Assembly: GCA_943329845.2 (NCBI GenBank)
Contig: CALQFM020000009.1
Coordinates: forward strand, 1 to 64,000
Source: Candidatus Kuenenia stuttgartensis
Lineage (GTDB): Bacteria > Pseudomonadota > Alphaproteobacteria > SMXS01
Reading direction: 5' to 3'
Length of the DNA stretch: 64,000 nucleotides
Positions 51,076-63,116 of the stretch are shown here, one piece after another (within the stretch, counting starts at the first letter, position 1; every line of letters starts with the position of its first letter). The notes beneath the pieces are model-generated. The model was not told where the DNA came from. It saw nothing but the letters and a program-made list of their open reading frames with translations, and searched no databases. The translations under genes and the position numbers were made by a program.

Positions 51076-51777
51076 ATGGACCGCATGCATGCCCTTCCCG
51101 CCCTGATCGGACTCCTGCTGATGCTCTCGACGGTTCCTGCCCTTGCCGCGGACGATCCGCTCCCCAAGGGGTTCGCCCACGCGGACGAGATGGTGCCCGG
51201 GCTGCTGCTCGACCTGCGCTACGCGGGCGCGGAGAATTTCGTCGGCCAGCGGGTCGATGGCTACGAGGCGGCGCGCGTGGTGCTGACGGCGCAGGCGGCG
51301 GAAGCGCTCAGGCAGGTGCAGGCCGACCTGAAGCCTTTCGGCCTGGGCCTGAAGATCTTCGATGCCTACCGGCCGACCCGGGCCGTCGCGCATTTCGTGC
51401 GCTGGTCGTCCATGCCCGACGATCCGCACGCGAAACACGTCTACTACCCGGACATCGACAAGCGGAAGCTGTTCGAGGAAGGCTATGTGGCGACACGCTC
51501 CAGCCACAGCCGCGGCAGTACCGTCGACCTGACGCTGGTGGCCATCGGCAAGGACGGCGCGCGCGCCGAGCTGGACATGGGCACGGCGTTCGATTTCTTC
51601 GGCCCGGAATCCTGGCCCGACTACACGGACCTAACCGGCGAGCAACGCTCCAACCGGCTGCTGCTGAAGCTGGTGATGGAGCGGCACGGCTTCAAACCCT
51701 TCGACAAGGAATGGTGGCACTTCACCCTGCAGGACGAGCCGTTCCCCGATACCTATTTCGACTTCCCGGTACGCTAG
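51076..51777 (+). CDS. D-alanyl-D-alanine dipeptidase (VanX/DdpX family), secreted
   Basis: A 233-aa zinc peptidase with a signal peptide (cut after ALA, about residue 24). The metal and catalytic residues are seen in [13 protein letters not shown] (His and Asp ligands) and EWWHF (catalytic Glu and His ligand), with IFDAYRP (Arg) upstream. It hydrolyses D-Ala-D-Ala. In the periplasm it most likely recycles peptidoglycan dipeptides rather than giving glycopeptide resistance. A second Met at codon 4 is an alternative start. The thiol operon begins 13 bp after its stop. Confidence 0.9.
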
Positions 51778-51790
51778 GCGGACATGGAAC

Positions 51791-52978
51791 ATGACGATCC
51801 CCGCATGTGACGGCTCCATGCGGATCGCCATGGTCTGCCACAGCACCCTGGGCGGCAGCGCGCGCAGCGCGGCACGGCTCGCGGCCGGACTCGCCCATCG
51901 CGGACACGCCGTGCACCTGATCAGCCGGGCCGCGTTGCCGTGGCCGGTGGACGACGCCGTCAGCCATCACCGCCTCGACACCGGCTCCATGGCGCTCGAC
52001 GATCCGTCGAGCACGCGCTGGCCGGACGCGCTGTTCGACCGTTTCGAAGCATTCATGCGACAGATCATCGAGCAGGAAGCCGTCGAGATCATGCATTTTC
52101 ACTACGCCGTGCCGTTCGCGCAGATGGGAGCGCGCCTTGCCGCGTCCGCGATGGGCGACCGGACCTCGGTCGTCGGCACGTTGCATGGCACCGACGTGAC
52201 CAAATCCACAAGCGCCTCCGCGAGGGACCCGCTCCGCGCCGCGCTCAGGCAGGCGGCGGCGCTGACGACGGTCTCGCACGCCCATGCGCGCCACGCACGC
52301 AGCCAGTTCGGCCTGGCTGCCGAACCGCGGGTGATCCACAACTTCGTCGGTGCGGACGAGCATCGGCCCGCAAGTCTGACGCGCGCGCGGCACCGCGACC
52401 GGTTGAGCAGGCCGCGGCTGATCCACGTCTCGAATTTTCGCGCCGTCAAATCGCCGGTGTCGCTCGCCGGCATATTCGCGCGGGTCAGGGAAAGTATGGA
52501 CGCGGAGCTGTGGCTTGTCGGCGACGGGCCTGAGCTGCCACGTGTCCGGGCAGCGCTCGAGCCGTCGGGCGATCATGTCCGGGTCTTCGGCATGCGCCGT
52601 GACGTGACGCCGCTGCTGGCCGAGACGGACCTGATGGTGCTGACCAGCCTGCAGGAGAGCTTTGGACTGGTCGCCCTGGAGGCCATGGCGTGCGGCGTGC
52701 CGGTGCTGGCGCCATGGGTGGGCGGGATTCCGGAGGTGGTCACCGACGGTGTCGCGGGCCTGCTGTTCAGGCCCGGCGACGAAATCGACGGCGCCGCCCG
52801 CGCGCTGGAGCTGCTGTCGGATCCGGAGCGGCACTGGGCCATGCGCGAAGGGGCGCTGGCGCGCGCCCGCGACTTCTCGGAAGCTCGGGTCGTCGCCGAG
52901 TACGAACGACTCTACCGGAGCCTTCCGCCCCGCCGCGGATCGAGTATGCCGCATCCAGACTACGCGGCCACATCATGA
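51791..52978 (+). CDS. bshA: GT4 glycosyltransferase resembling BshA
   Basis: A 395-aa GT-B fold enzyme. It matches BshA (GlcNAc-malate synthase of bacillithiol) at its characteristic stretches: the N-terminal GGSA loop (21-24), HFHYAVP (102-108), TLHGTDVT (130-137), VIHNFV (181-186), LIHVSNFRAVK (210-220), LVGDGPE (242-248) and ESFGLVALEAMACGVP (289-304, donor-binding Glu). It would join GlcNAc from UDP-GlcNAc to malate or a similar acceptor. MshA and generic GT4 enzymes are the alternatives. The next gene overlaps its stop by ATGA and two more follow in the same operon. Confidence 0.8.
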   Translation: MTIPACDGSMRIAMVCHSTLGGSARSAARLAAGLAHRGHAVHLISRAALPWPVDDAVSHHRLDTGSMALDDPSSTRWPDALFDRFEAFMRQIIEQEAVEIMHFHYAVPFAQMGARLAASAMGDRTSVVGTLHGTDVTKSTSASARDPLRAALRQAAALTTVSHAHARHARSQFGLAAEPRVIHNFVGADEHRPASLTRARHRDRLSRPRLIHVSNFRAVKSPVSLAGIFARVRESMDAELWLVGDGPELPRVRAALEPSGDHVRVFGMRRDVTPLLAETDLMVLTSLQESFGLVALEAMACGVPVLAPWVGGIPEVVTDGVAGLLFRPGDEIDGAARALELLSDPERHWAMREGALARARDFSEARVVAEYERLYRSLPPRRGSSMPHPDYAATS

Positions 52979-54165
52979 AGCCGATGAAGGACCTCGACGC
53001 GCTGCTGTCGACGCCGCGGGGCCGGGACTTCCTTCTGTCCAACGGTATCCATGCGGACGCGGCATCATTTCGCGCCGCGCTGTCGCCGCCGGAGGACGAC
53101 CGCCTGGCCCGCACGAGTGGCGCCGGTCACGGGCCTTTCGTTCACATGCATCAGCAGATCTATGTCGACTACCGCCCATCTGTGCTGGCCAAGGTGTTCA
53201 CGCTCGATGCCCTCGCAGAGGCGGGAGTTCATCCGGCATTCCTGTGGATCGACACCGACCGCGCTGCGTCCGACAAGCTGGCCTGCCGCTTCTACTGGCC
53301 GTTCGAGGGGGCCCTGCGCGCCATGAAGATATTGCCGCCCGGGTTGGGCTCTGTCGAAACCCGCTTCGCCCAGGTCGATCCACCGCGCACCTTGGCCGCC
53401 TACCGGCGGATCACCGCCTATATCCGGGGTGACAAACGCCAGCCGGAAGCGGCGGCGCTGGCACGGCTGTCAACGCTGCGGGCACATATGCTCGCCCGCG
53501 AAGCCGTGCCGCTGCGCGACTATGGGCTGGGCATGACCCACGCCCTGTTCACCGCCCATCTGGCGGTCGACCATCCCCATGTCGTGGTGTCCGATCTGCT
53601 TGAAAGGGGCTGGCTGACGCCGGCGATCGAGGATGTGCTCGCGGTGCTGCCTGCCGTGATCGCCGCGTGGAACGCGAGAGTAAGTTCGCTTAATGACGAC
53701 GGCATCGCCACCGCCGTCGGGAAACTGCCGACGGACTACCTGCCGCTGTATGTTTCGGATCCGGAGGACGGCGCAAGGCTGCGCCTGCGTCACGAGATCG
53801 CCGGCGCCGACCACTTCGCCACGGCTCAGGGGAACAGCGGACGCACCCTCCGCTACTTCCTCGGCACCCGCCGGCTGCAGCTCGACGAGCTGACGGAGAC
53901 GGGGCGCTGGAGCCCGGACGTCACCCTGCCCTTGCTGGCGAACGCGCTGTTCAGCGGCTGGGTGGCGGGCAGGAGTTCGGCGCTGTACGCGCTGGTTTTC
54001 AGGACGATCATGACCGACGTGCTCGGCGAACGCCCCATACCGATCCTGGTTCCCTGTCCCGCCGCCGATCCACGTCCGGCTGCAACCAGCCTGCTCCACG
54101 CCTATGTCACCGGCGCGGCGCTTTCCCGTCCGGATGCGCGCGCCGCATCGAGCGTGGCGTCATGA
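52975..54165 (+). CDS. unassigned protein, possible distant BshC
   Basis: A 396-aa soluble protein I cannot place with confidence. Residues 57-101 follow the layout of the BshC core: HQQ (59-61, compare GQQ), a Lys 12 residues on (K73), then PAFLWIDTDRAASDK (87-101, compare PVFWVAGEDHD). Near the C-terminus GWVAGRSSALY and ERPIPILVP recall the BshC GPGEINYW and PPVMPR region. It is about 140 residues shorter than BshC. BshC adds cysteine to GlcN-malate. Start ATG 52975 overlaps the upstream stop, and the next gene overlaps this stop, both by ATGA. The context favours a role in the same pathway. Confidence 0.55.
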   Translation: MKPMKDLDALLSTPRGRDFLLSNGIHADAASFRAALSPPEDDRLARTSGAGHGPFVHMHQQIYVDYRPSVLAKVFTLDALAEAGVHPAFLWIDTDRAASDKLACRFYWPFEGALRAMKILPPGLGSVETRFAQVDPPRTLAAYRRITAYIRGDKRQPEAAALARLSTLRAHMLAREAVPLRDYGLGMTHALFTAHLAVDHPHVVVSDLLERGWLTPAIEDVLAVLPAVIAAWNARVSSLNDDGIATAVGKLPTDYLPLYVSDPEDGARLRLRHEIAGADHFATAQGNSGRTLRYFLGTRRLQLDELTETGRWSPDVTLPLLANALFSGWVAGRSSALYALVFRTIMTDVLGERPIPILVPCPAADPRPAATSLLHAYVTGAALSRPDARAASSVAS

Positions 54166-54902
54166 CCGCCGGCATCGACATCCTGGCGTTCTCGCCACAC
54201 CCGGACGATGCGGAGATCGGCTGCAGCGGCGCGCTGATCCTGGCGGCACGAGCCGGGCAGCGAACCGGCATCGTCGACGTCACCGACGGCGAACGCGCGA
54301 CACGCGGCACGCCGGAGACCCGGAGCCTCGAGCGCGCTGAAGCCTCGCGGCGGCTGGGCCTTGCGACCAGGCTATCGCTCGGGTTGCCGGATACGCTGGT
54401 CGCCGTCGATGAAGACGCCCTTGGCCGCGTGGTTGAGGTGTTGCGGACCCTGCGCCCGCGTCTGGTGCTGCTGCCCTATCCGGAAGATCGCCACCCCGAC
54501 CACGGCGCGACAACCGAGCTGGTGCGGCGCGCGGTGTTTCTGGCCGGCGTGGGCAAGGCGTTCGAGGGAGCGGTTCACCGCGTCGGCGCCCTCGTGCACT
54601 ATATGATCCATGGTCCGTTTACGCCCAGCTTGGTCATCGATGTCAGTTCGGTCTGGGCCGAGCGCTGCCATGTGCTCGATGCCTATGGGAGCCAGTTCTA
54701 CATGCGCCAGGATTCCGGCGACGCAGCCGAGACGGCGCTTTCGCATCCCAGCTTCATGCAGGCGCTTGATGCGCGGGCGATTCATTATGGCGCCATGATC
54801 GGCGTGGTGCGCGGCGAGCCCTACTGGCAACCGGGTCCGGTTCCAGTGCACACCCTCACCGACGTGATCCCCGCCGCCGGCGGCTACCGGATGTTTCCCT
54901 GA
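54162..54902 (+). CDS. bshB1: LmbE/PIG-L zinc deacetylase resembling BshB1
   Basis: A 246-aa PIG-L fold enzyme. Zinc and catalytic motifs: HPDD (13-16) and HPDH (111-114). The run DILAFSPHPDDAEIGCSG, then GIVDVTDGERATRGTPETR and SLGLPDT, is the BshB1 pattern. BshB1 removes the acetyl group from GlcNAc-malate to give GlcN-malate. Alternatives are MshB or a mycothiol-type conjugate amidase. It overlaps the upstream stop by ATGA, and the ATP-grasp gene starts 2 bp after its stop. Confidence 0.85.
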   Translation: MTAGIDILAFSPHPDDAEIGCSGALILAARAGQRTGIVDVTDGERATRGTPETRSLERAEASRRLGLATRLSLGLPDTLVAVDEDALGRVVEVLRTLRPRLVLLPYPEDRHPDHGATTELVRRAVFLAGVGKAFEGAVHRVGALVHYMIHGPFTPSLVIDVSSVWAERCHVLDAYGSQFYMRQDSGDAAETALSHPSFMQALDARAIHYGAMIGVVRGEPYWQPGPVPVHTLTDVIPAAGGYRMFP

Positions 54903-54904
54903 AA

Positions 54905-56029
54905 ATGCCCAAACGCGGCGACACGTTCGGCGCGAGGATGGTGAAAGCGGTCGTCAGGTCGCGGATTATCATTGGCGCGCAGGACGCGGCGCTCAACAGA
55001 CGCTGGCGCAACGGACAACCCGACATCCTTCTGCTGCGCCATCCACAGAAGGGACCGTGGTTCTACCGGCAGTTTCTCGACTGGCTGGGAGCGAATTTCC
55101 CGCAGGTCCGGCAGCGTTTCGAGCTGGCGTTGCTGGGACAAGGCGACGCCATCGACCCATCGCGATACCGGCTGCTGGTTCCCTTGCTGCAGGATCCTGT
55201 CCAGGCCTGGTCGATGAAGGCTTATGCGCAGGCGTGCTCGCTCGCCGCCCGCTTCGAGGCGCAGGCCCTGCCTGTCGTCAACAAGCCGGCCGCCCTTGCC
55301 AATTCGGCCAAGAGCACCATGCTCGACACAACCCGCGCGCTGGGCATCAGGGCGGCGCGAAACATCCCCATCGGGTGTCCCGCCGACCTGCACCGGGCCG
55401 CCGGTGAACTCGGATATCCGTTCATCGTGCGCCCCGACCAGGGTCATGGACTGAAAGGGTTGCGCATCGAGTGTCACGCCGACATAGACAGGATCAGCGA
55501 GCGGGCGCTCCTGGCCATCGGCAAGCCTGTCGCTATCGAGTTCATCGATACGGTCAGCGCGGACGGCCTCTTCCGGAAGTTTCGCTATCTCGTGGCCGGA
55601 GACAATGGCGTGAGTGTTCACCTCATCGCATCGCGCCACTGGGAAGTCCGAGGCGACAGCAAGGTGCTGACCGCGGCGCTTGCCGCCGAGGAGCGGGACT
55701 TCATCAGTCGCCATAATCGCGACGCCCCGACCTTCGACGCGCTGGGACGGGCGCTCGACTTCGATTTCGCGGCTTTCGACTACGCGTATGATCCGGCAGG
55801 AAAGCTCGTCGTCTGGGAAGCCAATCCCTACCCGACCATCGTCTTCGGACGCGAGAGCGAGGCGCTCCGCTTCCGGACGGTCGCCGTCCACCGGTGCTTT
55901 GCCGCCATGGCGGCTCTCTATCTGTCCCGCGCGGGACTCGACGTACCTACGGAGCTGGCCGCTCTCGTCGACGATCCCGGCGGCGCGCCTGCACGCTGCG
56001 AGGTGCTCGCGGGTGCGCCTGCCCGTTAA
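54905..56029 (+). CDS. ATP-grasp ligase of the thiol operon
   Basis: A 374-aa protein with ATP-grasp features: NKPAALANSAKSTML (126-140; loop that often precedes the grasp in RimK/GshB relatives), LGYPFIVRPDQGHGLKGL (169-186; strand with Lys/Arg and glycine-rich flap), and the metal motif FDYAYDPAGKLVVWEANPYP (291-310; E305 and N307 as Mg ligands). Such enzymes join a carboxylate to an amine or thiol with ATP. In this operon it could add cysteine in place of BshC or an extra amino acid to the glucosamine-malate core. It ends 4 bp into the convergent GST gene. Confidence 0.7.
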   Translation: MPKRGDTFGARMVKAVVRSRIIIGAQDAALNRRWRNGQPDILLLRHPQKGPWFYRQFLDWLGANFPQVRQRFELALLGQGDAIDPSRYRLLVPLLQDPVQAWSMKAYAQACSLAARFEAQALPVVNKPAALANSAKSTMLDTTRALGIRAARNIPIGCPADLHRAAGELGYPFIVRPDQGHGLKGLRIECHADIDRISERALLAIGKPVAIEFIDTVSADGLFRKFRYLVAGDNGVSVHLIASRHWEVRGDSKVLTAALAAEERDFISRHNRDAPTFDALGRALDFDFAAFDYAYDPAGKLVVWEANPYPTIVFGRESEALRFRTVAVHRCFAAMAALYLSRAGLDVPTELAALVDDPGGAPARCEVLAGAPAR

Positions 56030-56631
56030 GCCGACGCGCTCGGCCGCCGTGAGAACGCCTGACGCCAGCGGACGATGTTGGGAAACTCCTCGGCGTCCTT
56101 CAGACCCACATAATCGCCGAAGCCGAGCGTCGCATAGAGGGTGCAGTCCGCGACCGACGGGCGGTCGCCCGCGACGAATGGCTTGTCGCCGATCTCCCTG
56201 TCCATGATGCCCAGGTTCTTGCGGTAGCAGTTGACTGCCATCTTCGCGGCATCTGGAGACTGCGGCCCCTTGTCGGCGAAGAACGGCGAGACGTTGTGGA
56301 CATAGTTGGCCAACTCGACCATCAGCCCCAACTCGGCCAGCCTGTCCAACTCGCGGACGCGGGCGCGCTGCAGCGGCGAACGGCCGAGCATAGGCGGCTC
56401 GGGAATGAGTTCCTCGAGATACTCGATGATGACCAGGGATTCGCGGATGACGGTGCCATCGTCGAGTTCGAGGAACGGCACCACGGCGAGCGGGTTCTTC
56501 GCCAGCATCTCAGGCGTGCGCAGGCCATGGTTCATGACGTCAACGTCGACGAGGTCGAGCTCGATGCCCTTCTCGGCGGCGTAGATGCGCACCTTGTGCG
56601 GATTGGGCGCGGCGAAATTGTAGAGCTTCAT
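56026..56631 (-). CDS. glutathione S-transferase
   Basis: A 201-aa GST with a thioredoxin-like N-terminal half (MKLYNFAAPNPHKVRIYAAEK, FLELDDGTVIRESLVIIEYLEE; the cis-Pro and ES contact for glutathione are seen) and an all-helical C-terminal half (RPSVADCTLYATLGF). It conjugates or reduces substrates with glutathione, so this organism probably has glutathione as well as the proposed thiol. It is convergent with the thiol operon, sharing 4 bp. Confidence 0.9.
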   Translation of the reverse strand: MKLYNFAAPNPHKVRIYAAEKGIELDLVDVDVMNHGLRTPEMLAKNPLAVVPFLELDDGTVIRESLVIIEYLEELIPEPPMLGRSPLQRARVRELDRLAELGLMVELANYVHNVSPFFADKGPQSPDAAKMAVNCYRKNLGIMDREIGDKPFVAGDRPSVADCTLYATLGFGDYVGLKDAEEFPNIVRWRQAFSRRPSASA

Positions 56632-57302: not shown

Positions 57303-58754
57303 ATGAATACGGAACCCTTCGCCTCGGTGTTCGCCCGCGCCATTGGCGCCGACGGCGGAGACGCCGTGGAAAAAGTGGCGGACGGCGACTTCCAGGACAT
57401 CTTCCCCCTGATGCCGGTGGGCCAGCGCGTCGACATGGGCACGGCCCCGGACGGCACGCCCCTGATCGACCCGCGCATCTTCTTTTCCGCGGAGTTCCGG
57501 CGCAATCCGTGGCCCTACTACCGGCTGATGCGCGACCACTATCCGGTCTATCACAACCAGCTCAACAACACCTATTACGTCACCCGCTACGACGACATGA
57601 CCGAGTGCTATTTCGACGACATCGGCTTCAACACCATCCCGAAGGGGTCGTCAAACGGCGTGCTGGGCAACGTCACCCACGAACTGAGCGGGGTCGAGCA
57701 CCGGCGCCGGCGAAACCTGTTCGGCCAGCACCTGGTCGGCAAGGCACTGGAAAATCGCGTGCCCGCCATCGAACGGCTGGCGCAGGAAATGATCGACGAC
57801 TGGGCCAATGTGGACGCGCCATGGTGCATCACCAACGGCAACGTCCGCACCATCGAGCTGGGCCAGGCCTTCGCCGACGCCTTCCCTGTCCGCGTGGTCT
57901 GCGACGTGCTGGGCTTTCCCATGGAGGCGCGCGACAACTTCGTCTACTGGTACAATTCGATGATGGGCGGGCTGGGCGCGTCCGAGACCCACAGGCAAGG
58001 GATGGAGGCGCGCCAGCATCTGGAGGACTTCGTCGAATCCATCGTCGAGGACCGCCGCAAGAACCCGACCTTCCTCTACGACAATGACGGCAACAATATC
58101 GGCAAGGACATCATCTCCAAGCTGTGCGAGAGCCAGGTGGATGGCGACTATCTGTCGACCGAGGAGATCACCGCGCTAATCGCGCTGGTGGTTGCGGGCG
58201 GCGGCGAGACGACGCGCGGCACGCTGATGAACATGTGGTACAGCCTGTTGCAGAAGCCCGATCAGGCCGAGGCGGCGCTGGCCGACGAGTCCCTGTGGGA
58301 CGCGGTGTTCCACGAGACGCTGCGCCATTCCAACCCGATCGGCGGCCAGCCACGGCACGCCACCTTCGACGTGCAGATCCACGGCACGACCGTGCCGGCC
58401 GGCTCGCTGATCGAGATGGTCAACTTCTCCGGCAGCCACGACGAGCGCATCTTCCACGACGCCGACAACTTCAACATCTTCCGGCCCGACCTCTACACCG
58501 GCAAGCTGCTGCGCAGCGGCTACCGCAAGGAGGGCAAGTGCAGTCACATGGCGTTTGGCGTCGGACCGCACATGTGCCCCGGGGCCTGGATATCCCACCA
58601 GGAAGCGGTGATCGGCTCGAAGATCCTGTCGCGGACCATGAAGAACCCGCGGATCAACCGCGACCGGATGCCCAAGGACATCGACGGTGTCAGCCTCGCG
58701 CCCATCGGCATCAACAAGACCCGCGAGCTGTGGCTCGATTTCGATCTGGCCTGA
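57303..58754 (+). CDS. cytochrome P450, cassette 1
   Basis: A 483-aa P450, long for a soluble bacterial member. It keeps all catalytic signatures: C-helix H133 with R137, I-helix AGGGETT (298-304), ExxR in HETLRH (338-341), and haem loop FGVGPHMCPG (418-427) with ligand C425. An N-terminal extension of about 50 residues (LMPVGQRVDMGTAPDGTPLIDPRIF) is shared with cassette 2. GGGGA precedes the ATG. The next gene, a P450-like partner without the cysteine, begins 10 bp after its stop. Substrate is unknown. Confidence 0.93.
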   Translation: MNTEPFASVFARAIGADGGDAVEKVADGDFQDIFPLMPVGQRVDMGTAPDGTPLIDPRIFFSAEFRRNPWPYYRLMRDHYPVYHNQLNNTYYVTRYDDMTECYFDDIGFNTIPKGSSNGVLGNVTHELSGVEHRRRRNLFGQHLVGKALENRVPAIERLAQEMIDDWANVDAPWCITNGNVRTIELGQAFADAFPVRVVCDVLGFPMEARDNFVYWYNSMMGGLGASETHRQGMEARQHLEDFVESIVEDRRKNPTFLYDNDGNNIGKDIISKLCESQVDGDYLSTEEITALIALVVAGGGETTRGTLMNMWYSLLQKPDQAEAALADESLWDAVFHETLRHSNPIGGQPRHATFDVQIHGTTVPAGSLIEMVNFSGSHDERIFHDADNFNIFRPDLYTGKLLRSGYRKEGKCSHMAFGVGPHMCPGAWISHQEAVIGSKILSRTMKNPRINRDRMPKDIDGVSLAPIGINKTRELWLDFDLA

Positions 58755-58764
58755 GGCGAGCCAC

Positions 58765-60135
58765 ATGAGCACTGAAGCGAAGCAAGCGGCCAAGCCGCCG
58801 GCCTACGGCGCAGGCGCACCCGACAAGGATGCCTTCACCGGGCGCAACGGCGTGCCGCTGTACACCCGCAACGGCAACCAGAACGACTACCGGACCTACG
58901 AGGTCTACCAGCGCGAGCGGGTCAAGGAAGCCACCGACAAGATCCGCCCGATCCAGCTGATCTCGCCCGAATTCATCAAGGATCCCTACCCGGTACTGGA
59001 AATCCTGCGCGAGAACTATCCGTTCTACCGCGACTGGCTGAGCAATTCGTTCTGGGTGACGCGCTACGACGACGTGACGTCGATCTTCACCGACGACGCC
59101 AATTTCGAGACCCGGCCCAAGCGCTGGTTCTACGGCATCGAGGACCTGGGCCGCGACCTGGGCCAGGAAGTGGCGCTGCTGACGGCGCAGGCCACCCGGA
59201 TCGACGCCAATGTCGAGCGCATCTCCCGCGAGATCGTCGAAGGCTTCAGGGACAGTGGCGGTACCGACCTGGCCATCGAATTCGCTGCGCGCCTTCCGCT
59301 GGAACTGCTCGCCTGCGTCCTCGACCTGCCGAGGGAGGATTTCCCCAAATTCGTCGAGCGGTACTGGCGCATGCAGCGCGGCGCCATGTGGGAGCCGAAG
59401 AGCCGGCAGGCCGGCCTGGGCGCTATCCAGGAGCTTGTCGAATATTTCAGGCCCATACTGGCCGCGCGGCGCGCCAACCCCGGGGACGACCTGGTTTCGG
59501 CGGTAGCGGCGCTCGATCCCGATGGCGGCCCAGCGACCGCCGAGGATCTGGTGGTGACGCTGCTGGAGCAGGACCACGAGACGCTGCATGGGGCGCTCGC
59601 CAACATGTGGTTCCAATTGCTGACGCATCAGGACCAGCTCGACCTGGTAAAGCGCGAGCGGCGCATGGTGAAATTCGCCTGGCTGGAAACGCTGCGGCAT
59701 TCGGCGCCTGTCGTCACCGCCAACCGCTTCGCGCGGCACGAGGTGGAGCGCTTCGGCCGGCTGATCCCGATCGGCGCCCTGCTGCACTGCTCGGCCGCCG
59801 CGGCCAACCGCGATCCGCGCCAATACAAGGACCCGGACAGGTTCATCGTCGGCCGCAAGGATCTGTGCCAGCGCGAGCCGCGCGGCCAGTACCGCGCCGA
59901 TGGTCTGCCGGCCGGCGTGGCGTTCGGTTTGGGCAAGCCGTCGAAGCACCCCGCGGTGCCCGAGGACCGGCCGCGCTCGCTTTACGCGCTCACCCGCGAT
60001 ACGGCGACGACGGCGTCGAACGTGCTGCTGGACATGGTGCCGGATATCAGGCTGAAGCCCGGCGCCACGCCGGAACTGCGCAGCCTGCGGCTGGGCGAGA
60101 TGCACACCTGCTGGAACCTGCCGGTGGTGTTCTGA
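58765..60135 (+). CDS. P450-fold protein lacking the haem cysteine, cassette 1
   Basis: A 456-aa P450 homologue. It keeps the fold and ExxR (ETLR, 308-311), but the haem loop reads FGLGKPSKHP (387-396), where the normal His, Cys and Gly are Pro, Lys and Pro. The I-helix acid-alcohol pair is changed to EQDHETLH (268-275) and the C-helix HxxxR is not seen. It should not bind haem as thiolate, so it cannot be a standard monooxygenase. Actinobacterial parallels (DesVIII, EryCII) are cysteine-less P450s that activate a partner enzyme. It probably forms a complex with the P450 upstream. Confidence 0.9.
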   Translation: MSTEAKQAAKPPAYGAGAPDKDAFTGRNGVPLYTRNGNQNDYRTYEVYQRERVKEATDKIRPIQLISPEFIKDPYPVLEILRENYPFYRDWLSNSFWVTRYDDVTSIFTDDANFETRPKRWFYGIEDLGRDLGQEVALLTAQATRIDANVERISREIVEGFRDSGGTDLAIEFAARLPLELLACVLDLPREDFPKFVERYWRMQRGAMWEPKSRQAGLGAIQELVEYFRPILAARRANPGDDLVSAVAALDPDGGPATAEDLVVTLLEQDHETLHGALANMWFQLLTHQDQLDLVKRERRMVKFAWLETLRHSAPVVTANRFARHEVERFGRLIPIGALLHCSAAAANRDPRQYKDPDRFIVGRKDLCQREPRGQYRADGLPAGVAFGLGKPSKHPAVPEDRPRSLYALTRDTATTASNVLLDMVPDIRLKPGATPELRSLRLGEMHTCWNLPVVF

Positions 60136-60159
60136 ACCGGCGGATTTCCGCCTTTATCC

Positions 60160-60204
60160 AGTCACGTGTGACTTTTGATTCATTGCCAATCCGGCATCCA
60201 GGAT
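60160..60204 (+). promoter_or_regulatory. Crp/Fnr-type dyad before P450 cassette 2
   Basis: CAGTCA-CGTG-TGACTT (60159-60174) has the same AGTCA-N4-TGACT core as the site at 57211. GGATGTA (60201-60207) lies about 35 bp after the dyad centre, within 1 bp of the matching AGATGTA (57254-57260) at cassette 1. The shared spacing supports a common activator. Confidence 0.6.
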
Positions 60205-60250
60205 GTAGGTTGGCACCATCTGGCCCAACCTGAACCGAATGAGGCCCCGA

Positions 60251-61717
60251 ATGGACTCCATCACCGCTTTTCTCAGCAATATCGTCGAGAATACCGACGC
60301 CAGGACGAGCGAGGGCGGCAGCCCTTCGCCAGCGCCCCGCGCACGGTTTGTCGCGGCTCACGACTTTCCGCTGATGCCCGTCGGCCAGGCCTGTGACATG
60401 GGGCATGCCCCCGATGGCACGCCGCTGATCGACCCGCGAATCTTCAATGCGCCGGAGTTCTTCCGCAACCCGTACCCGTACTACAAGATCATGCGGGACC
60501 ACTATCCGGTGTTCTTCGACAAGCTGCACAATTGCTACTACGTCACCCGCTACGACGACATCACCACCTGCTACTTCGATGACGAGGGCTTCAACACCAT
60601 CCCCAAGGGTTCGTCGAGCGGCGTGTTGGGCAACACCCAGCTGGAGCTGAGCGGCGTGGAGCATCGCCGCCGGCGCAACCTCTATGGCCAGCACCTGGTC
60701 GGCAAGTCGCTGGACAACCGCCTGCATGCCATCGAAAGCATCGGCGAGGAGATGATCGCCGACTGGGATAATCTGGACGAGAGCATCGTGCAGGACCGCA
60801 ACGGCGTCCGGAGCGTCGCCATCGGCCGCGCCTTCGCCAACGAGTTTCCGATCCGCGTCGTCTGCGACGTGCTCGGTTTCCCCAAGGAGTCCCGGAAGAA
60901 ATTCTTCTACTGGTACAATTCCATGATGTCCGGACTCGGCGGCTCGGAGACCCATCACCAAGGCCTCGAGGCGCGCCAGGACTTGGAGGATTATGTCGGA
61001 ACGCTGGTTGAGGAGCGCCGCGCGCACCCGACCTATCTCTATGATGCAGCCGGCAACCCCATTGGCAAGGACATCATCTCCAAGCTGTGCGAGACCCAGA
61101 TCGACGGCGACTATCTGTCGACCGAGGAAATCACCTCCAATATCGCGCTGGTTGTCGGCGGCGGCGGCGAGACCACCCGCGGCGCCATCCTGAACATGTG
61201 GTATCTTCTGCTGCAGCACCCGCAGCAGCTCGAAGCGGTGCTGGCCGACCCGGAGACCATGTGGGACGTGGCGTTCCACGAGACGCTGCGCCACTCGACG
61301 CCGATCGGCGGCCAGCCGCGTCACAACTCGTTCGACATCGAACTGCACGGCGTGAAGATCCCGGCCGGCTCGCTGGTCAACATGGTCGACTTCTCGGCCA
61401 ACCACGACGACCGCATCTTCAAGGATCCGGAAGTCTTCAACATATTCCGGCCGGACCTGTACAGCGGCAAGCTGCTGCGCAGCGGCTATCGCAAGGAAGG
61501 CCGCTGCAGCCACATGGCGTTCGGCGTCGGCCCGCATCTGTGCCCCGGGGCGTGGATTTCCCACCAGGAGGCGGTGATCGGTTCGAAGATCCTGCAACGC
61601 CACCTGAAGAATCCCCGCCTGAACGTGGACAAGATGCCGAAGGATTTCGACGGCAGCCTGATGCCGATTGGCCTCATCTCGGCCAAGGAAATCTGGATCG
61701 ACTACGACCTGAACTAG
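60251..61717 (+). CDS. cytochrome P450, cassette 2
   Basis: A 488-aa P450 closely related to the one at 57303 through its whole length (shared LMPVGQ, DGTPLIDPRIF, VEHRRRRNL, KDIISKLCE). Catalytic residues are intact: HRRRR (C-helix His and Arg), GGGGETT (I-helix), HETLRH, and FGVGPHLCPG with the haem Cys near residue 430. ATG 60251 is preferred over an in-frame ATG 12 bp upstream since GAGG lies between them. It is followed 10 bp later by its own cysteine-less partner. Confidence 0.93.
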   Translation: MDSITAFLSNIVENTDARTSEGGSPSPAPRARFVAAHDFPLMPVGQACDMGHAPDGTPLIDPRIFNAPEFFRNPYPYYKIMRDHYPVFFDKLHNCYYVTRYDDITTCYFDDEGFNTIPKGSSSGVLGNTQLELSGVEHRRRRNLYGQHLVGKSLDNRLHAIESIGEEMIADWDNLDESIVQDRNGVRSVAIGRAFANEFPIRVVCDVLGFPKESRKKFFYWYNSMMSGLGGSETHHQGLEARQDLEDYVGTLVEERRAHPTYLYDAAGNPIGKDIISKLCETQIDGDYLSTEEITSNIALVVGGGGETTRGAILNMWYLLLQHPQQLEAVLADPETMWDVAFHETLRHSTPIGGQPRHNSFDIELHGVKIPAGSLVNMVDFSANHDDRIFKDPEVFNIFRPDLYSGKLLRSGYRKEGRCSHMAFGVGPHLCPGAWISHQEAVIGSKILQRHLKNPRLNVDKMPKDFDGSLMPIGLISAKEIWIDYDLN

Positions 61718-61727
61718 GGCAACATCA

Positions 61728-63116
61728 ATGAGCACGACAGAAGCGACCCGGGCCACGCCAGGCGCCGGCAAGGCCCAGACTGAAGCTGCGCCCGAAGCGC
61801 CGAAGATCACCTATGGCCGCAACGGCGTGCCGATCACGCCCGGCGGCGTGACGGGCCACGGTTTCCGCACCTACGAAATCCATCAGCGCGAACGGCTCGG
61901 CCAGTCGACGGCCAAGATCAAGCCGGCGCAGCTTATTTCGCCGGAGTTCATCCGCAACCCCTACCCGATCCTGGACATCCTGCGCGAGAATTATCCCAGC
62001 TACCGCGACTGGCTGGAGAATTCCTACTGGATCACGCGCTATGACGACGTGACGTCGATCTTCACCGATGACGCCAATTTCGAGACCCGTCCGCGCCGCT
62101 GGTTCTACAACATCGCCGATTACGGCCGCGACCTGCGGCTTGAGCTGCCGGTGCTGTTCGCCCAGGCGAACGCTATCGACGGCAACGCCCAGGCGGTCGC
62201 CGAAGAGATCGTCGGCGACATCAGGGCAAAGGGCGGCGCCAATCTCGGCATCGACTTCGCCGCACGTTTCGCGCTGGAGCTGCTGGTCCGCCAGCTCGAC
62301 CTGCCAAAGGAAGACGCGCCGCTGTTCTGCGAACGCTACTGGCGCATGACCCACGGCTTCAACGTCGATCCGGTCGCCGAGCAGGACGGCCTCGCCGCCA
62401 TCCGCGAACTGACCGAGTATTTCCGCCCGCTCCTCGCCAAACGGCGCGCCAACCCGGGCGACGACCTTGTCTCGGCGATCGCGACGCTCGATCCCGCTGG
62501 CGGACCCGCTACGGCCGAGGATCTGGTGGTGACGCTGCTGGAAGGCGACCATGAAACACTGCATGGCGGCCTCGCCAATACCCTGTTCCTGCTGCTGACC
62601 AACGCGGACGAGTTCCAGAAGGTGAAGGAGGAGCGCCGCATGGCCAAGTTCGCCTTCCTCGAGGCGCTGCGCCACTCGGCGCCGGTGCTGTCGGCCCGCC
62701 GCTTCGCCCTGCATGAGGTCGAGCGCTTCGGCAAGCTGATCCCGGAAGGTGGCATGCTGATCTGTTCAGCCGGCGCCGCCAACCGTGACCCGCGCCAGTA
62801 CAAGGAGCCGGAGAAGTTCATCGTCGGCCGCAAGGATCTGTGCCAGCGCGAGCCGCGGGGCCAGTACCGCGCCGACGGCCTGCCCGCCGGCATCGCCTTC
62901 GGCCTCGGCAAGCCGTCGAAGCATCCGGCGGTGCCCGAGGACCGGCCGCGCTCGCTGTACGCCATTACCCGCGACACGGCGACGACCGCGCTCAACGTGC
63001 TGATCGACGGCCTGCCCGGCCTGCGGCTGAAGCCCGGCGCCAAGCCGGAGCTGCGCTCGCTGAAGCTGTGGGACACCCACACCTGCTGGGACCTGTCTGT
63101 GGAATTCGACAACTGA
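61728..63116 (+). CDS. P450-fold protein lacking the haem cysteine, cassette 2
   Basis: A 462-aa paralogue of the gene at 58765 with identical departures: FGLGKPSKHP in place of the haem loop, EGDHETLH in the I-helix, and ExxR kept (EALR). The runs RKDLCQREPRGQYRADGLPAG and KHPAVPEDRPRSLYA are shared almost without change, so this degenerate site is under selection and is not simple decay. The N-terminal 30 residues are low-complexity and differ. It is presumably an obligate partner or chaperone for the P450 before it. A terminator follows. Confidence 0.9.
   Translation: MSTTEATRATPGAGKAQTEAAPEAPKITYGRNGVPITPGGVTGHGFRTYEIHQRERLGQSTAKIKPAQLISPEFIRNPYPILDILRENYPSYRDWLENSYWITRYDDVTSIFTDDANFETRPRRWFYNIADYGRDLRLELPVLFAQANAIDGNAQAVAEEIVGDIRAKGGANLGIDFAARFALELLVRQLDLPKEDAPLFCERYWRMTHGFNVDPVAEQDGLAAIRELTEYFRPLLAKRRANPGDDLVSAIATLDPAGGPATAEDLVVTLLEGDHETLHGGLANTLFLLLTNADEFQKVKEERRMAKFAFLEALRHSAPVLSARRFALHEVERFGKLIPEGGMLICSAGAANRDPRQYKEPEKFIVGRKDLCQREPRGQYRADGLPAGIAFGLGKPSKHPAVPEDRPRSLYAITRDTATTALNVLIDGLPGLRLKPGAKPELRSLKLWDTHTCWDLSVEFDN

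Follow-up and report, generated by a model that had tools for sequence, protein, structure and literature searches.

The closest described system to the locus presented here is the bacillithiol pathway (BshA, BshB1 and BshC), whose third enzyme carries a C-terminal coiled-coil dimerisation domain and whose BshC reaction still lacked an in vitro demonstration as of a 2015 review (PMC4360819). N-methyl-bacillithiol is made by the same route with one additional tailoring gene (bshABC plus nmbA), the tailoring enzyme being a SAM methyltransferase, and the surveys of both pathways demanded a canonical BshC homolog (PMC6282198, PMC12719100). Mycothiol biosynthesis (MshA-D) follows the same logic, with a GT4 glycosyltransferase, a PIG-L deacetylase and a ligase of the class I synthetase fold.

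In the window (the whole stretch of 64,000 nucleotides that was analysed), four translationally linked open reading frames occupy positions 51791-56029 of the + strand, with the lengths and motifs that had been quoted in the preliminary description:

51791..52978, + strand: gene 1, predicted BshA-type GT4 glycosyltransferase, 395 aa (TIGR03999, BshA structures).
52975..54165, + strand: gene 2, BshC-fold protein, 396 aa, predicted ligase acylating the glucosamine (GlcN) amine (AlphaFold model).
54162..54902, + strand: gene 3, predicted BshB1-type PIG-L deacetylase, 246 aa (TIGR04001, 2ixd).
54905..56029, + strand: gene 4, ATP-grasp ligase of the RimK/LysX-like type, 374 aa, predicted to attach one more amino acid or acid (model fold).

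The start and stop codons of genes 1 and 2, and likewise those of genes 2 and 3, overlap by 4 bases, and genes 3 and 4 lie 2 bases apart, so that co-expression of the four genes is almost certain from this layout. With the bacillithiol pathway, the locus has in common the BshA-type and BshB1-type enzymes and a third enzyme of BshC fold; it differs in that this third enzyme, at 396 aa, is without the BshC profile, signature motifs and C-terminal coiled coil, and in having an extra ATP-grasp gene, a glutathione-making host and a compact operon. It resembles the N-methyl-bacillithiol system in its bacillithiol-type route plus one tailoring gene, but here this gene encodes an ATP-grasp ligase instead of a methyltransferase. 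Since a canonical BshC was demanded in the surveys cited above, these would miss the four-gene set. The bacillithiol and N-methyl-bacillithiol routes are already known, and the combination with an altered ligase and an ATP-grasp enzyme appears new; no report of it was found in the open-licence literature, which is weak evidence of absence.

The assignment of gene 1 to the BshA type, already proposed from its motifs, was borne out. Its best family is TIGR03999 (BshA) at 270.2 bits (E 2.5e-80), 3.5 bits short of the cut-off of 273.7 and 167 bits ahead of the next NCBIfam family (103 bits), and for each of the six gene-1 orthologs BshA is the family matched at the best E-value. Alignment with the B. 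anthracis enzyme (3mbo/2jjm; E ~3e-57) spans the whole protein, which is identical to BshA at the Y, S and T of HYAxP, GGS and TLHG, which we take to be the malate contacts of BshA (Parsonage 2010). The UDP-GlcNAc contacts of the B. anthracis enzyme, N206, K211, E282 and E290 (PMC6107550), are also identical in gene 1 when numbering is mapped via the alignment, the N206 position being Ser in the four distant orthologs. Gene 3, for its part, proved to be BshB1-like as had been claimed, scoring 236.7 bits against TIGR04001 (cut-off, 182.5), with 6/6 orthologs matching this family, an E-value of 2.7e-43 against B. cereus 2ixd, and the zinc-deacetylase motifs HPDD and RHPDH invariant in the six orthologs. 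By these family scores the quoted motifs are no accident, and the scores point toward BshA and BshB1. The preliminary description had named a phylogeny that sets the two enzymes apart from the BshA and BshB1 clades as speaking against it; a BshB tree of only 12 rows left 6 of its 9 inner branches open. On this strong homology, genes 1 and 3 are predicted to make GlcN-malate.

The gene-2 product of the window matched no Pfam or NCBIfam family, none of the six family members matched PF10079 (BshC) even at an E-value of 10, no canonical BshC (PF10079) was detected elsewhere in the host genome, and a plasmid search returned no gene-2 homolog. The preliminary description had held that gene 2 keeps the layout of BshC and had named an unrelated fold, in advance, as the outcome that would speak against it; the structure comparison sustained the claim. 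An AlphaFold model built on the alignment of six orthologs (pLDDT 74, pTM 0.75; low-confidence at residues 97-135 and 364-396) has B. subtilis BshC 4wbd as its top solved structure (Foldseek E 1.1e-9), with a Z of 19.7, an rmsd of 3.9 and 326 residues aligned (VIA). Class I LysRS comes next (Z 14.3), and MshC is a lesser match (Z 8.4); as genes 1 and 3 also fall far under the MshA and MshB cut-offs, the locus differs from the mycothiol system.

The same relationship was sought at the profile level, using three real BshC sequences taken from plasmid records via a short probe. Alignment of this BshC profile with gene 2 (hhalign) was collinear and paired the following motifs, BshC first: (i) GQQ..K with HQQ..K, (ii) IFWVAGEDHD with FLWIDTDRA, (iii) NLF(Y)..GER with LPLF/LPLY..DG.R, (iv) SNNV..RP with SPDV..LP, and (v) GPGE(IN)Y with GRSS(AL)Y. 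Its score of 27.0 exceeded 150/150 column shuffles (highest, 26.2) and a reversed control (15.2); the 2.8% probability given by default reporting is informative through the shuffle control only. The BshC signatures GQQ, EDHD and GPGE are absent from gene 2, which has in their place HQQ, TDRA and GRSS-type motifs shared by the six orthologs. The stretches HQQ..D.R.SV..K, IDTDRAAS, GRWSPDV and AGRSSALY-type are invariant and lie at positions equivalent to those of BshC. At 396 aa versus ~540 for BshC, the protein is also shorter, and its model is without a long helix beyond residue 349, in the low-confidence tail. Altogether, gene 2 is very probably a remote BshC homolog, with a BshC-like fold and motif order, and is not a BshC by sequence-family test. 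Because the BshC signature residues are missing, its amino-acid substrate is not readable from the sequence.

The ATP-grasp nature of gene 4, also claimed beforehand, was upheld by its model fold (pLDDT 82, pTM 0.84), which matched RimK 5zct with a Z of 18.2, followed by LysX (17.3), PsnB (17.1), ArgX (16.4) and E. coli glutathione synthetase (15.0); like those of gene 2, these fold matches rest on six-sequence alignments. D292, E305 and N307 are invariant in the six orthologs, and, judged by the spacing of this D..E.N triad, they are presumably the usual ATP-grasp metal ligands. Gene 4 thus has in common with RimK, LysX, ArgX and glutathione synthetase a fold and a metal-binding triad, but it lies far under the cut-off of the RimK family TIGR00768 (16.4 versus 143.4 bits) and its partner genes are bacillithiol-type. 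Model and conserved residues together predict an active-looking carboxylate-amine ligase. Distant relatives (70-95 bits) occur in other Alphaproteobacteria (L059 6285-7313, L060 and L062), in unrelated gene contexts that gave no hint of substrate; in L059, the gene preceding the relative resembles, by eye, a phytanoyl-CoA-dioxygenase-type protein.

The preliminary description had suggested a search for this gene order in other alphaproteobacteria and had counted a lack of conserved co-occurrence against its claim; co-occurrence was found to be conserved, with six genomes, from two orders of Alphaproteobacteria, each carrying the complete set at one locus. A congener of the window genome (G002; JALHLV010000001.1, Sphingomonadales bacterium), by which the host is alphaproteobacterial, has the same A-C-B-ATP-grasp order, with 58-72% protein identity across the four genes, and the values for this pair (dN/dS of ~0.17-0.31 for all four genes, from NG86 values) indicate purifying selection. 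The cluster occurs in 2/7 congeners and is absent from the five others. In another order, four of the four genomes examined in one genus (G189, G390, G391 and G392) carry A-C-B followed by the ATP-grasp gene on the opposite strand, with cluster proteins at 40-53% identity. As the ATP-grasp gene is inverted in this genus, the link within the cluster is independent of a single operon. In one of these loci (L020 1051-7317, G392), the ATP-grasp gene begins within the last bases of the reading frame upstream of it, itself preceded by apparent oligopeptide ABC transporter genes; this was not noticed next to the ATP-grasp gene in the other carriers.

Wider draws gave the same picture. In an even draw of 385 genomes of the class, leaving out two borderline hits of 16-17 bits to gene-2 fragments, the gene-2 family and an over-cut-off BshB1 occurred only in the same two carrier genomes, and in a draw of 289 class genomes, full-length gene-4 orthologs occurred only in those two carriers (~600 bits; next, 95). 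A wide draw of 398 genomes of the phylum yielded no further carrier, and a scan of genome contigs with two narrow patterns returned the congener only. Contamination or misassembly was ruled out, the set being present also in the single-contig genomes G189, G390 and G392, and chance co-localisation was ruled out by the co-occurrence in the class draws and the repeated linkage across genomes. From this linkage, the co-occurrence in carriers only and the dN/dS values, the four-gene set is a real functional unit, one that has probably spread horizontally.

A VanX-like D-Ala-D-Ala dipeptidase gene (51076-51777, + strand; 228 bits, cut-off 320) stops 13 bases upstream of gene 1, and a glutathione-S-transferase-like gene (56026-56631, - strand) lies tail-to-tail with the ATP-grasp gene, with a 4-base overlap. 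Both were considered as pathway members and rejected, homologs being absent from the two carrier loci searched (L003 and L011), and four window neighbours (VanX, GST, UppP and SecDF) are all missing from the G002 locus. Further downstream, positions 57303-63116 (+ strand) hold four P450 genes arranged as two tandem pairs. In both pairs the leading member keeps the heme-cysteine motif FGVGPHxCPG; the partners (58768-60132 and 61728-63113) read FGLGKPSKHPA, the heme cysteine missing in both copies. Their best NCBIfam family is TIGR04538 (cyclodipeptide-synthase-associated P450), and the second for the partners is TIGR04515 (P450-derived glycosyltransferase activator), all far under the cut-offs.

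We propose a pathway in which gene 1 would join UDP-GlcNAc and L-malate into GlcNAc-malate, gene 3 would deacetylate it to GlcN-malate, and gene 2, judging by fold and gene order, would acylate the amine of the glucosamine, the amino acid used being possibly cysteine. Ligases such as RimK, LysX/ArgX and glutathione synthetase activate a carboxylate and couple an amino acid to it, each on its own substrates. Gene 4 would form a second amide in this manner, most likely by activating a malate carboxylate, to which an amino acid would be coupled; this is the simplest site, since the amine would then be left to gene 2. On this scheme the cells would make, alongside glutathione, either a bacillithiol extended by an aminoacyl group or a closely similar GlcN-malate conjugate. 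We hold the four enzyme classes with high confidence. The whole scheme, i.e., a horizontally scattered operon that takes the first two bacillithiol steps and then diverges, we regard as somewhat better than an even bet. Slightly less firmly, though still on the favourable side of even, we would see in it a new class of bacillithiol-derived metabolite, in which GlcN-malate is doubly acylated, first by a minimal BshC-fold ligase without the coiled coil and then by an ATP-grasp enzyme resembling RimK, in glutathione-containing Alphaproteobacteria, with gene 2 as a new BshC-fold family of changed substrate.

The thiol physiology of the hosts bears on the nature of this product. Firmicutes with a bacillithiol redox system are not known to synthesise glutathione. 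Here, a gshB-type gene is present in all carriers and a gshA-type gene in every one except G391, a fragmented genome; YpdA, the bacillithiol disulfide reductase, was over cut-off in 0/10 genomes, with 3/14 controls passing. As the carriers encode glutathione synthesis and are without an over-cut-off YpdA, the cluster is not a simple bacillithiol replacement, the reading as a bacillithiol-like redox buffer is weakened, and the product would add to glutathione without replacing it. The same observations lend some weight to another explanation, which we consider possible and clearly less probable than our scheme, namely that the product is not a thiol, genes 2 and 4 attaching other amino acids, or other acids, in place of cysteine to give a GlcN-malate specialised metabolite such as a signal, a metal chelator or an antimicrobial. 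The replacement of the BshC signature residues throughout gene 2 and the patchy spread among the congeners, typical of accessory metabolism, point the same way; however, the BshC fold is still the best match of gene 2, and the loci compared share no export or regulatory gene next to the cluster.

A further reading reverses the roles of the two ligases: the ATP-grasp enzyme would ligate cysteine (or another amino acid) to the glucosamine amine, and the BshC-fold protein would be otherwise employed, in editing, as a carrier or in a second ligation. It would account for an invariant metal triad in gene 4 where the active-site signatures of gene 2 are remodelled, and BshC activity itself was unshown in vitro according to PMC4360819; we nevertheless judge it unlikely, since purifying selection on gene 2 and its invariant motifs at equivalent positions suggest an active enzyme. 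Plain bacillithiol made via a divergent BshC, with the ATP-grasp gene as a passenger, is very improbable despite the parallel of genes 1-3 with bshA, bshC and bshB, as the ATP-grasp gene accompanies 6/6 clusters in two orders and both orientations, has no full-length ortholog elsewhere in the 289-genome class draw and is under purifying selection.

Our preferred reading remains the doubly acylated GlcN-malate, and the cluster product is probably a related small molecule so far undescribed. To our knowledge, the catalytic mechanism of BshC is a long-standing gap, and a small BshC-fold homolog without the dimerisation coil, clustered with the enzymes that likely make its substrate, offers a practical handle on it. 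Moreover, as this BshC-fold family escapes profile searches, surveys of bacillithiol-type pathways that demand a canonical BshC (PMC6282198, PMC12719100) may undercount them. Should the product be a thiol, the carriers would make two of them, glutathione and this one.
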